IMG/VR virus record: IMGVR_UViG_3300030109_003951
Location: 22,601 to 86,600 of that record
From: a virus
Reading direction: 5' to 3' (one strand)
Length of the DNA stretch: 64,000 bases
Of this stretch, positions 375 through 45,257 are shown in pieces (position 1 is the first letter of the stretch; every line of letters starts with the position of its first letter). Below the pieces are notes generated by a model. That model searched no databases. It had not been told where the DNA came from and saw only the letters and a list, made by a program, of their open reading frames with translations. Made by a program: the position numbers and the translations under genes.

Positions 375-668
375 TTGTCTTGGGAAGATATACTCAAAGT
401 AAGAGTTCCAGTAGGCAGAGCGCAAGGCTCTGATGAACGACCAGATATTACAATGGATGTATCTGAAAAAGTATTAGCGGGTGCTGATATTTTATATGCT
501 GTTGAGAAAGCAAACTTGAGAGATAAAACTGGTAAAGGTATAGGAGAAACACTTTTAGAAATGTTAGATTTTACATCTAAAGAAATGACTTTAGCCAATG
601 CATTATATCGTGATAAATCAGTACCAAGTCTTTATATTGACTATAAATTTCAAGAAATGTATGAATGA
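375..668 (+). CDS. small uncharacterised late-operon protein
   Basis: A 97-residue protein with a TTG start two bases after the previous stop, so translation is probably coupled. It is acidic and mostly helical, with no signal peptide, membrane segment or metal-binding cysteines. Family not recognised. Placement between two probable virion genes suggests a head or neck accessory role, by context alone. Confidence 0.6.
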   Translation: MSWEDILKVRVPVGRAQGSDERPDITMDVSEKVLAGADILYAVEKANLRDKTGKGIGETLLEMLDFTSKEMTLANALYRDKSVPSLYIDYKFQEMYE

Positions 669-1400: not shown

Positions 1401-1607
1401 ATGCCTTTTCTCCCATCAATTACTGGCAACGAACAAGTAGCCTATGATATGAGTAGAGCGCATTCTGCTGATTTATTTTTTATCAAGATGAGAGCATGGT
1501 TTTGGGGAGTAACTGCTAGTGTTGCTTGTTTCTTATTAGGTCATATGATTGGCGTACTTGGTATCAATCTATATGAAATGGTGTGGGGTTGGTTTGGTGG
1601 TCATTAA
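1401..1607 (+). CDS. single-pass membrane protein
   Basis: A 68-residue protein with a 30-residue polar N terminus and a strongly hydrophobic Trp-rich segment at about residues 33-58. Its stop codon overlaps the next start as TAATG, so it is translationally coupled to the GTPase. A holin-like role cannot be excluded because it is small and hydrophobic. The position between virion genes and the coupling to a GTPase make a membrane adaptor equally likely. Confidence 0.6.
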   Translation: MPFLPSITGNEQVAYDMSRAHSADLFFIKMRAWFWGVTASVACFLLGHMIGVLGINLYEMVWGWFGGH

Positions 1608-2272
1608 TGTCATTAATGGCTGGATTTGCCGTAGTCGCTGCTGATATTGCTTTAGGGATATATCATAAATTAAACACTATACCTTTTGGTGTATATGGTG
1701 CTACTAGAGTTGGTAAAACAACACTACACAATCAATTAAGAACAAGGGGCGAGGTTGCCGAAATTAAAAAAAGAACAGTGGGTTTACAACGGGCTACTAG
1801 AAAATCAGTTAAGATAGATGGCGATGCTAGAACTTTAAAAACTGCCGATATAGGTGGAGAGTCAAAGTATTGGGATTTATGGAAAAAAGATATGAAAGAT
1901 AGAAAAGTAGATTATATTATTTTTGTAATTGATGATAGGCACTTAGAACAAACTTACAATTTAGAAAATCAATTAGCATGGACTTATCTTGTAGATTTAG
2001 TTTGTGACGATTATTGGCACATAGGTAAAAAAAGAAAAAAGAAAAAAAAGTTTCCTAAAGCAGTTGGCTTGTGGGCAAACAAATATGATAAGTGGGGAAA
2101 GGAACATAATTACGAAGGGCCAATAGAAGAACACCCTATATTTCAGTCATTTAAGTATGGGATGCAGCGATTACATGATAAAGGAATACCCACTCACAAG
2201 TACATCGTGAGTGCAAAATCCGACCCAGAAATGGTATATCGTGGAGTAATGACAATGATAAAAGACTATTGA
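1607..2272 (+). CDS. membrane-anchored small Ras/Arf-like GTPase
   Basis: A P-loop GTPase of about 221 residues. Visible motifs are a hydrophobic N-terminal anchor (residues 1-20), G1 GATRVGKTT (31-39), G3 ADIGGE as the DxGG switch II, G4 ANKYD for guanine specificity and G5 VSAKS near the C terminus. A run of lysines lies between switch II and G4. I chose the ATG at 1607, which overlaps the preceding stop as TAATG; an in-frame GTG at 1583 is possible. The NKxD motif separates it from packaging or tail ATPases. Small GTPases of the Ras/Arf type are not a standard part of a tailed-virus late operon. The two preceding membrane proteins suggest action at the host membrane or a virion membrane interaction. 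The function is unknown. Confidence 0.85.
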   Translation: MSLMAGFAVVAADIALGIYHKLNTIPFGVYGATRVGKTTLHNQLRTRGEVAEIKKRTVGLQRATRKSVKIDGDARTLKTADIGGESKYWDLWKKDMKDRKVDYIIFVIDDRHLEQTYNLENQLAWTYLVDLVCDDYWHIGKKRKKKKKFPKAVGLWANKYDKWGKEHNYEGPIEEHPIFQSFKYGMQRLHDKGIPTHKYIVSAKSDPEMVYRGVMTMIKDY

Positions 2273-2273
2273 G

Positions 2274-2918
2274 ATGATAAAAATGATGCAAGGAAATTAT
2301 AATGGAGGGTTAATTGGTAATACACAACATAACCCATTTGACAAACCTAGTAAAATCGCAAGATTAGCAGGGCCGATGATGGAATATAAATTTGAAAATA
2401 CAGCCCCCAAAAAAAAGTTAAAAGAATTAAGAAAAGTTTTGTTACCAGAAAAAAGAAAATTTTTACTTTTGAAGTTTGGCTACAAGTATAACATCCGTAA
2501 TAGATGTTTAGTGTGTGGCTCATGGCATGAGTGGGAAGCATCTGACCCATTAAGGGCTGGTATCATATTATCAGAAGTAACTAAAGGAAGACCGCTCCAA
2601 GGAACTTATTGTCCTAGACATGCTAACATGTATAAACAATTTGAAATGCTTCAAGATGAAGTTTTGGCTGACAAACATGGCTTAGAATTTAAAAGATATA
2701 TCCCTAAACCGAGAATCCCGTTAATGTCACAAGGGCCAATGACTAACCTAAATCAAGCGCAAGTTTCAAGTCTGATAGCCGCAGGGTGGTTAATACAGCC
2801 GCCCAAAGGCACCAAGGAGATTCCGAAAGAACAATACGTTAGATTGATGTCGGAGATACAAGGCAAACTAAAACAAATAGAAAATTTAGTAGGAGTGATA
2901 GACAATGGTGAGGAGTAG
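2274..2918 (+). CDS. zinc-finger protein of the late operon
   Basis: A 214-residue basic protein starting one base after the GTPase stop. A Cys-x2-Cys pair (CLVCGSWHEWE) is followed about 40 residues later by YCPRHANMY, giving a plausible CCCH zinc site. The last 50 residues are helical. Family not recognised. Tight linkage to the GTPase suggests the two act together, which is inference. Confidence 0.6.
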   Translation: MIKMMQGNYNGGLIGNTQHNPFDKPSKIARLAGPMMEYKFENTAPKKKLKELRKVLLPEKRKFLLLKFGYKYNIRNRCLVCGSWHEWEASDPLRAGIILSEVTKGRPLQGTYCPRHANMYKQFEMLQDEVLADKHGLEFKRYIPKPRIPLMSQGPMTNLNQAQVSSLIAAGWLIQPPKGTKEIPKEQYVRLMSEIQGKLKQIENLVGVIDNGEE

Positions 2919-3594
2919 TACATTAAATACAGCGTTACAAGGTCAACAAACAAACACATTCAAAACAATGAATAATCTGTTAACATTACAAGATAATCAT
3001 GTTGAAGAATTTTTACAGTATCACGGTCATGAATTTTTCTTAGGTATAGAGAAGTTCTTAGAAGATATTGTAGAGAGAGTCATGAGTCAAATGTTATCTA
3101 AGTTAGAATTCAATGTAGATAATACCAGTGGCTCAATGAAATTAAATGAATATTGTCTAAAGGAATATGAACGAATTACACAAGAAAATATCGAACTAGA
3201 TATTCAAACCATTCTTGCTGCTTCTCTAAACATGGAAGTAGTTAATCAAAGAAGGTTAGCAAAAAACAGTTATTTAGAATCTCAAGGATTTAATCCTCAA
3301 AGCCCTGCTTCTCCAGCAGGACAAGGAATGCCAGCAAATCAAGGAATGATGCAAGGCCAGATACAAGGTCAACCAATGGGCGGTCAAATGAATCAACAAA
3401 TGGCTATGCAACAAAATAATCAATCTGGTTATCCTGTTCCGCCAGCAGGTTACGATAATTACGGCAATCCATACTGGGTAGACCCTAATAATGGACAAGT
3501 CACTTACACTGCCCCATCTAGTGGGTTAGGTATTGGTCGTGCGGCTATGCAAGGAATTGGTAAAGCGGCTGCATGGGCCAAGTGGTTAGCATGA
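2905..3594 (+). CDS. late protein with Gln/Met/Gly-rich linker
   Basis: A 229-residue protein overlapping the previous gene by 14 bases, with a ribosome binding site before the ATG. Residues 1-120 are helical. Residues about 130-175 are a low-complexity Gly/Gln/Met/Pro stretch. A YDNYGNPYWVDPNNGQ motif then precedes a hydrophobic, Gly/Ala-rich tail. No family recognised. The extended linker suggests a flexible virion or scaffolding component. Confidence 0.6.
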   Translation: MVRSSTLNTALQGQQTNTFKTMNNLLTLQDNHVEEFLQYHGHEFFLGIEKFLEDIVERVMSQMLSKLEFNVDNTSGSMKLNEYCLKEYERITQENIELDIQTILAASLNMEVVNQRRLAKNSYLESQGFNPQSPASPAGQGMPANQGMMQGQIQGQPMGGQMNQQMAMQQNNQSGYPVPPAGYDNYGNPYWVDPNNGQVTYTAPSSGLGIGRAAMQGIGKAAAWAKWLA

Positions 3595-43964: not shown

Positions 43965-44185
43965 TCTCCAGTGTCCTCCAGTGGGATGATGCCAATCACC
44001 CCATCTTCTTTAAGAGAATGATACATTCTAGCCGCAACGATGAATGCCTCTCCTGCATTTTTTGTCCAGAAGGTAGTTCTAGAAAATTCATCACTTGCCC
44101 AATCGACTTGATGGTTTTCTACTTCATCAACAGTGGCCACTGCTATTTTCCAATGACCATCTACCTTCTTAACAAAGATGAACAT
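43961..44185 (-). CDS. uncharacterised protein beside JAMM protease
   Basis: A 74-residue alpha/beta protein from the ATG at 44185, overlapping the JAMM stop as TAATG. FIFVKKVDGHWKIAVATVDEV is followed by AGEAFIVAARMYHSL and IIPLED. It is not a clear ubiquitin-like fold, since it lacks the Gly-Gly end. Coupling to the JAMM gene makes it a candidate substrate or partner. Confidence 0.5.
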   Translation of the reverse strand: MFIFVKKVDGHWKIAVATVDEVENHQVDWASDEFSRTTFWTKNAGEAFIVAARMYHSLKEDGVIGIIPLEDTGE

Positions 44186-44715
44186 TATTCTTCCTCCCAA
44201 ACACCTGCTACAGTTGCCCCTTTATTAATTGGAACAAAAATTTCAAAGTGGGTATCGGTTTTTCCTTTAATCCAAGTCATCCGTTCTGCCCCACCTAATA
44301 CAATCGCTGAATCCATAATTGGCTCATAGGTATTGATTGTATTCCAATCCGTTCCACTAAAGTAAGCCTTACCAAATGGGTGAGTGTGAATCCAACATTT
44401 GATGGGCATTTTCATACCAGTAACTTCTTCATTATCGTGGAACCAAACAAATGAGCCAGTCCCGAAAGTAATGAATAATTTATTATTGCTGTCTATTACT
44501 ACTTGCACTTCTCTGTCACAATCAAATGCAGTTTTACTCATGTGCCATATAGAATCTAAAACATCTTGACCCGCTTTAGTATGTCTAAGATAATGAGTTA
44601 TTTCTTCTCTAAGATATTTATTTACATAACCCCAATCTAAGAATCGTTGCCATGCACTTTCTATTTCTTGTTTCCATTCTTGGTTAACTACCGTGTCTTC
44701 TAAATTCAAAACCAC
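44185..44715 (-). CDS. JAMM/MPN+ metalloprotease
   Basis: A 176-residue protein. The JAMM signature is complete: His110-Thr-His112-Pro, then Ser120-x2-Asp123 (HTHPFGKAYFSGTDW). An upstream Glu is available for catalysis. These zinc enzymes remove ubiquitin-like proteins from targets or trim their C termini. The E1-like gene lies directly upstream and overlaps it. The ubiquitin-like gene is 3 kb upstream in the same block and ends GGY, so trimming of that Tyr is a natural substrate. TTG at 44709 is an alternative start. Confidence 0.85.
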   Translation of the reverse strand: MVLNLEDTVVNQEWKQEIESAWQRFLDWGYVNKYLREEITHYLRHTKAGQDVLDSIWHMSKTAFDCDREVQVVIDSNNKLFITFGTGSFVWFHDNEEVTGMKMPIKCWIHTHPFGKAYFSGTDWNTINTYEPIMDSAIVLGGAERMTWIKGKTDTHFEIFVPINKGATVAGVWEEE

Positions 44716-45257
44716 ACCACCATTTCATTGTCAACGTGGTCTTTACTAAACCACCGTTGAATCCACTGTGCGCCTAATCCAGCCACAACATAATGCATGC
44801 AGTTGATTCCTTTTGCTTTGCCATCCCAATCATTTCCTTGACAAGAAAAGTTACCATCTGGCCCTGCCAACAATTCATCGTATTTTTCAACTGGTGTTTT
44901 ATATGAGACAAGAATACTTCCTCTACCCTGTGCCCTTAAATCTAACCAAGGTTTATCATAACCATACAACAATCTTCTTGCTGTTAAATTATCAACACAA
45001 CACACAATCAAATCATATCCTTTGAGTTGACTTTTGGTTAATACAGCAAAAGGTTCACCTTTTACTTTGTTATACTTGGCCATTACATTTGCCTTTTTCA
45101 TTCCTACTTCACCTATCTTAAAGTTTTGATATGTGATATTTTTTTCTTCTACTGTGTCTGGGTCATATACTGTAATATCATATGTTCCTATCTTACTAAG
45201 AATAGGAATCAAGTTACTACCGATACCACCTGCACCAATTATCATTACCTTCTTCAT
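44706..45257 (-). CDS. E1/ThiF-like adenylating enzyme
   Basis: A 183-residue protein, short for the family. The Rossmann loop GAGGIGSN lies at residues 8-15. DPDTVEEKNITYQNF at 32-46 matches DxDxVexsNLnRQ, but the conserved Arg is Tyr43. Then come VGMKKANVMAKY and VDNLTARRLL (Asp89-Asn90, Arg94). Candidate catalytic cysteines are Cys139 and Cys153. It would adenylate the C-terminal Gly of a ubiquitin-like protein. Coupled to the JAMM gene by overlap. It could serve sulfur transfer or protein conjugation; the sequence does not decide. Confidence 0.82.
   Translation of the reverse strand: MKKVMIIGAGGIGSNLIPILSKIGTYDITVYDPDTVEEKNITYQNFKIGEVGMKKANVMAKYNKVKGEPFAVLTKSQLKGYDLIVCCVDNLTARRLLYGYDKPWLDLRAQGRGSILVSYKTPVEKYDELLAGPDGNFSCQGNDWDGKAKGINCMHYVVAGLGAQWIQRWFSKDHVDNEMVVWF

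Follow-up and report, generated by a model that had tools for sequence, protein, structure and literature searches.

The window analyzed here is a 64,000-base stretch of DNA taken from an 86.6-kb virus record (bases 22601-86600). Upstream lie genes for TerL (phrog_38, 2.5e-54; L163:10868-12304), a portal protein (phrog_18178, 7.9e-53), and the major capsid protein (phrog_24667, 1.3e-21). The record also encodes a GroEL-type chaperonin and an HMGL-like lyase, and its replication genes are on the opposite strand, all of which fit the description of the Aoguangviridae, a family of the order Magrovirales that the ICTV recognizes as tailed viruses of marine archaea (PMC10768690). The assignment of Poseidoniales as hosts comes from the magrovirus literature. 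The haloarchaeal Druskaviridae have a distant relative of this capsid protein, a kinship already published for magroviruses. Elsewhere in the window, on the minus strand (44185-45257), a ThiF/E1-like protein (1.3e-17) and an overlapping protein, which has no Pfam match but by its HTHP...S..D stretch could be taken by eye for a JAMM/MPN protease, are a possible viral ubiquitin-like activation/deconjugation pair.

A cassette of six plus-strand genes sits after the major capsid protein gene and before the head-tail adaptor gene. The original prediction had set its GTPase in a tailed-virus structural operon, and the genes around it, with capsid and portal upstream and the head-tail adaptor downstream, agree. 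The first cassette gene (718-993) encodes a small beta-rich protein with a weak match to phrog_28102, which is putatively capsid decoration-like. It is followed by genes for two small membrane proteins. One (1005-1391) has about two transmembrane helices and a charged tail, and its family (alignment of 159 rows) shares DTRLVMTILFVG and LLDRKI; the other (1401-1607) has a single transmembrane helix, seen as a hydrophobic segment after a conserved RAHSAD. The gene for the latter is found at all 162 GTPase loci and adjoins the GTPase gene in 153 of them. Here, the last base of its stop codon is also the first of the GTPase start (TAATG), and the GTPase gene (1607-2272) ends one base before the next gene (2274-2918). 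According to the alignment and an AlphaFold2 model (pLDDT 81, pTM 0.58), that gene encodes a zinc-ribbon protein with C-terminal helices, in which four invariant residues (C78, C81, C113, and H116) point to a zinc site; the model has no fold match in the PDB. The last gene (2905-3594) overlaps the zinc protein gene by 14 bases and encodes a helical, Q-rich protein with an N-terminal helical block, a linker rich in Q and G, and a C-terminal block that is conserved (PPxGxDxYG[RN]PYWxDPxxGQ). By eye, this last stretch (PPxGxDxYGRPYWIDPQTGQMSYEPP) looks like a WW domain in which Tyr replaces both Trp; it has no Pfam match.

The gene at 1607-2272 (+) is a confirmed open reading frame of 221 amino acids, and it encodes a complete, single-domain small GTPase from the Ras superfamily, Arf/Rag-like in type. 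The four GTPase motifs that had been read from the DNA occur in its translation in the order claimed: GATRVGKTT (residues 31-39), ADIGGE (80-85), ANKYD (157-161), and VSAKS (201-205), and the spacing of their cores is as expected. These cores are the G1/P-loop GATRVGKT (residues 31-38; 1697-1720), the G3/switch II DIGGE (81-85; 1847-1861), the G4 NKYD (158-161; 2078-2089), and the G5 SAKS (202-205; 2210-2221), which opens a nearly invariant C-terminal block, SAKSDPEMVYRG. In an alignment of 60 diverse relatives, G31, G36, K37, T38, T57, D81, G83, G84, N158, K159, D161, S202, A203, and K204 do not vary in any member, and every Ras superfamily pattern is present: G1 GxxxxGK[ST], the G2 Thr, G3 DxxG, G4 NKxD, and G5 SAK. 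One position does vary. Within G3, the residue equivalent to Ras Q61 and Arf Q71 is Glu in 40 of the 60 members and Gln in 20, and the substitution of Glu for the catalytic Gln in two thirds of the family may result in slow or partner-dependent hydrolysis.

Could the protein be a P-loop ATPase instead? The P-loop taken alone would suit a packaging ATPase, a KaiC-like protein, or a dynein-type protein, but we consider such an identity highly improbable. The original prediction had named placement in a packaging-ATPase family, or loss of NKxD from close relatives, as grounds for abandoning a GTPase; what we find is that the N, K, and D are present in all 60 relatives, SAK is likewise invariant, the predicted fold is of the Arf/Ras type, and TerL, the packaging ATPase, is encoded by a separate gene.

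Family placement draws on both profile and structure comparisons. Three Pfam families match the protein above their curated cut-offs, MMR_HSR1 (8.7e-7), Arf (3.4e-5), and Ras (1.2e-4), with Arf (PF00025) scoring 23.8 bits against a gathering threshold of 22.3 in a partial match; the NCBIfam small_GTP model also matches (9.4e-6), yet below its own cut-off. Among the 60 members, matches were to MMR_HSR1 (54), Roc (44), Arf (23), SRPRB (22), and Ras (19), where the Arf and SRPRB counts were taken at E ≤ 0.01. The AlphaFold2 model, built with 60 sequences (pLDDT 77.5, pTM 0.76), shows a helix at residues 2-22 followed by a single G domain with a beta2-beta3 hairpin, and Foldseek matches it to the PDB at E 3.5e-7. 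The structure prediction that had been proposed as a check thus returns Arf GTPases as the best match: in VIA-align, ARF1 (Z 15.4), ARL1 (15.3), and ARF6 (15.0) lead, followed by LokiRagO (14.9) and Gerdarchaeal ArfR1 (14.5), with Rab proteins mostly at about 13.7. Z differences of less than 1 are ties, so “Arf/Rag-like” is the limit of the assignment. With the Pfam matches and the invariant G1-G5 motifs, the claim of a Ras/Arf-like GTPase holds, and its position near the Arf family appears likely from the structure and profile comparisons.

The resemblance to Arf/Arl proteins (ARF1, ARL1, ARL6, and the Asgard GerdArfR1, 8oum) extends beyond their rank as the best structural matches (Z 14.5-15.4). 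Both have an N-terminal helix, a T-V-G in switch I, and a D-[VI]-G-G-[QE] in switch II. However, identity is 14-23% among the matches listed, and the viral protein often has Glu for the catalytic Gln, a basic insert ahead of NKxD, and the unique C-terminal block. It also has Ser2 in place of the myristoylated Gly2: residue 2 is Ser in the window protein and in at least 90% of alignment rows. SRP receptor beta (SRPRB, PF09439), an Arf-related GTPase with an N-terminal membrane helix, is another relative to consider, matched by 22 of the 60 members at E ≤ 0.01. However, the window protein scores 17.1 bits against a gathering threshold of 25, and it has no SR-alpha or SRP context.

The original prediction also described a hydrophobic N-terminal anchor. 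A hydrophobic helix is indeed present in the model and the hydropathy profile at residues 2-22 (1610-1672), with conserved G6, F7, and E13, but its service as a true anchor is less certain. Its mean Kyte-Doolittle value is 1.29 over 19 residues (family range, 0.83-1.66) and its hydrophobic moment is low, at about 0.20. This modest hydropathy, together with the conserved Glu13, makes the anchor reading plausible but borderline. The helix could span the membrane and pair with a helix of a partner; it could bind membranes through an amphipathic surface, as Arf and ArvA do; or it could pack against the G domain.

How widespread is this GTPase? A motif scan confirmed relatives on 357 IMG/VR contigs, and the best 80, all at least 60% identical, were kept. 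We used the capsid protein rather than the GTPase as bait in two surveys, which avoids counting just what had been searched for. With the window capsid, the GTPase, both membrane proteins, the zinc protein, and the beta-rich protein were present in 55 of 55 contigs reaching at least 3.5 kb beyond the capsid gene. The last cassette gene was present in 54; the exception is a contig that stops just 5 kb beyond the capsid gene and in which the GTPase is shifted to 3.5 kb. With a divergent capsid, all six cassette genes were found in each of the 42 contigs long enough to show them. Each bait draws its own nearest 80, so that the surveys cover part of the magrovirus clades, and they may share contigs. 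Coupling of the GTPase to two membrane proteins and a zinc protein had been predicted, and this four-gene set is kept in essentially all magrovirus-like contigs examined. One contig with the cassette, IMGVR_UViG_3300021958_000021 (L040/L270), is 184,733 bases long, about twice the size of known magroviruses; it is either a concatemer or misassembly or a larger relative.

The location is as constant as the content. Wherever a GTPase locus had enough upstream sequence (131/131), the capsid gene lay 1.3-3.5 kb ahead of the GTPase. Pairwise distances for the two proteins are correlated (Mantel r 0.715 at 116 loci, with 0 of 500 permutations as high), the pattern expected of a vertically inherited core gene. 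Altogether, the magrovirus-type tailed viruses of marine archaea have in this GTPase a fixed core gene that is inherited vertically. To our knowledge, no small GTPase had previously been recognized as a core gene of tailed viruses. Our literature search, outside the main genome papers on magroviruses (Philosof 2017, Zhou 2023, Prabhu 2025), found no GTPase linked to magroviruses, Poseidoniales, or Marine Group II viruses.

The cassette is specific to the magrovirus side of the capsid kinship. HCTV-1 and HVTV-1, both Druskaviridae, retain the major tail protein and the head-tail adaptor (profile matches of 1.6e-19 and 2e-17), but no cassette gene finds a match in them, and all six are absent from three IMG/VR Druskaviridae genomes. 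The cassette is thus a magrovirus feature at a conserved place. In HCTV-1, the gap between capsid and adaptor holds short genes, and gp116, directly before the adaptor, begins with a hydrophobic stretch by eye.

Other searches for counterparts returned little. The GTPase had no counterpart in PHROGs or INPHARED, with no tblastn hit at E 0.01 in 50,697 phage records. A scan of about 85,000 species genomes for a close cellular homolog found only two viral contigs in one metagenome-assembled genome. That genome is labeled Maricaulis sp. IN14, a bacterium, and the magrovirus contigs in it (L082 and L083; NZMJ01000101.1 and NZMJ01000024.1) are probably misbinned. BFVD matches at E < 0.001 with a named organism were all to giant eukaryotic viruses. 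Giant-virus Rab proteins have prenylated C-termini. Like the protein described here, the Rab/Ras proteins that account for nearly all BFVD matches (e.g., mimivirus Rab, PDB 5xc5) are virus-encoded small GTPases; however, they belong to eukaryotic viruses, are host-like Rab proteins, and are found outside any capsid/neck operon. The giant viruses nevertheless offer a precedent for a captured cellular GTPase that disturbs host GTPase signaling, division, or vesicle traffic, in which case the late-operon place would be accidental. This seems quite improbable to us, as the GTPase keeps one position and one set of partners throughout and the species genomes contained no close cellular homolog.

A GTPase gene fixed beside genes for two membrane proteins and a zinc protein suggests a GTP-controlled membrane step late in infection. 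Action at the membrane is suggested by the two membrane proteins encoded next to it, by its hydrophobic helix, and by its likeness to ArvA and Arf. Its constant location between capsid and neck genes favors morphogenesis as the step that takes place there, though a position in the structural operon does not prove an assembly role. We therefore tentatively favor a model, short of confidence, in which the GTPase is a switch in virion morphogenesis at a membrane site, with particle release as a continuation. The protein would cycle between GDP and GTP forms at the cytoplasmic side of the host cell membrane, tethered there by the two membrane proteins and perhaps by its own N-terminal helix. Its GTP form would recruit or release the zinc protein and the 2905-3594 protein, which in turn would connect to the capsid or neck. 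The step would most likely be one in which heads dock or mature ahead of tail joining.

An ArvA-like role in release is the main rival to morphogenesis. ArvA (OapA, HVO_3014), the euryarchaeal vesiculating GTPase of Haloferax volcanii, is the closest cellular analogue and functional precedent: its knock-out strongly lowers vesicle numbers and its over-expression raises them, it is filed under PF01926 with Arf as its closest HHsearch hit, and it has an N-terminal amphipathic helix and a Zn-ribbon protein in its operon (PMC10927574). By this description, the two are alike as small single-domain GTPases with PF01926/Arf affinity, an N-terminal helix, and a zinc-protein gene in the operon, and ArvA has a membrane role. 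However, the viral gene is inside a capsid/neck operon, where it is accompanied by an unrelated zinc protein and two membrane proteins. OapB/ArvB (PF09846) and OapC/ArvC (PF09845) were both found in the H. volcanii control and are absent from the 86.6-kb record, so we do not file the viral protein as ArvA. We also considered the viral zinc protein as ArvC/OapC and rejected it, as it has no Pfam OapC match and no PDB fold match. An egress or vesiculation machine of the ArvA or Arf/Sar1 type, in which the helix and membrane proteins curve or open the membrane and particles exit by budding or lysis, would draw on the driving role of ArvA in Haloferax vesicle formation, with a Zn-ribbon protein in its operon (PMC10927574), and on the shared Pfam pattern, N-terminal helix, and downstream zinc protein. 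Still, we regard it as rather unlikely: OapB and OapC are missing, the hydrophobic moment of the helix is small, and the cassette sits among head and neck genes rather than in a separate lysis block.

Many late-operon proteins in these viruses share a further feature. A short N-terminal tag, M-[STN]-W-x-[DEN]-[IV]-[LI]-K (MSWxDILK), opens dozens of otherwise unrelated proteins. It occurs within the first 40 residues of 131 of the 1,266 plus-strand ORFs of capsid-anchored loci, against 1 of 5,715 internal 40-residue segments, and the sequences that follow it fall into 63 groups by BLAST. Tagged plus-strand ORFs occur at L163:21, 327, 649, 948, 1861, 5106, 5614, and 16186 and at window 375-668. 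Genes inserted within the cassettes of relatives also bear the tag or a variant (L017 5448-5994, L021 6660-7200, and L066 6657-6895). Another insert, an ORF at 5701-5991 of L040 between the single-helix membrane protein and the GTPase, has GSVGKKDNPKDIDLLF and, ahead of it, a tag-like WFSILK start by eye; it looks like a minimal nucleotidyltransferase. The tag is possibly a sorting or capsid-packaging signal, and it may resemble the capsid-targeting sequences of T4 internal proteins. Two tagged products, a CCA-adding/poly(A) polymerase-type enzyme (L163:5614-6855; PolyA_pol, 6.9e-16) and a HAD domain of RNA-repair proteins (L163:5106-5609; 2.4e-12), are possible RNA-repair cargo.

The tagged late proteins suggest that virions may carry cargo, and the cassette adjoins the head-tail adaptor genes and is strictly co-inherited with the capsid gene. 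Could the cassette proteins themselves act at entry? The membrane proteins, GTPase, and zinc protein would then be packaged in or on the virion near the neck and would form or trigger a membrane channel at DNA ejection. We judge this unlikely, since the cassette proteins lack the N-terminal tag of the putative cargo and a GTP switch would be an unusual ejection device.

Morphogenesis at a membrane site thus remains the reading that we prefer, with the tentativeness stated above. We entertain, a little more doubtfully, a broader proposal: that five or six magrovirus genes form a dedicated, lineage-old Arf-like GTPase machine, which would remodel or mark the archaeal membrane in an obligatory step of particle assembly or release. 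This would be a tailed-virus system under the control of a Ras-superfamily switch, and it would not depend on host vesiculation proteins. Magroviruses count among the ocean's most abundant viruses, and we know of none in culture. A GTPase fixed among the capsid and neck genes provides a concrete handle on how these viruses assemble at the membrane or exit through it, and it would bear on the spread of Arf-like membrane switches before and outside eukaryotes.
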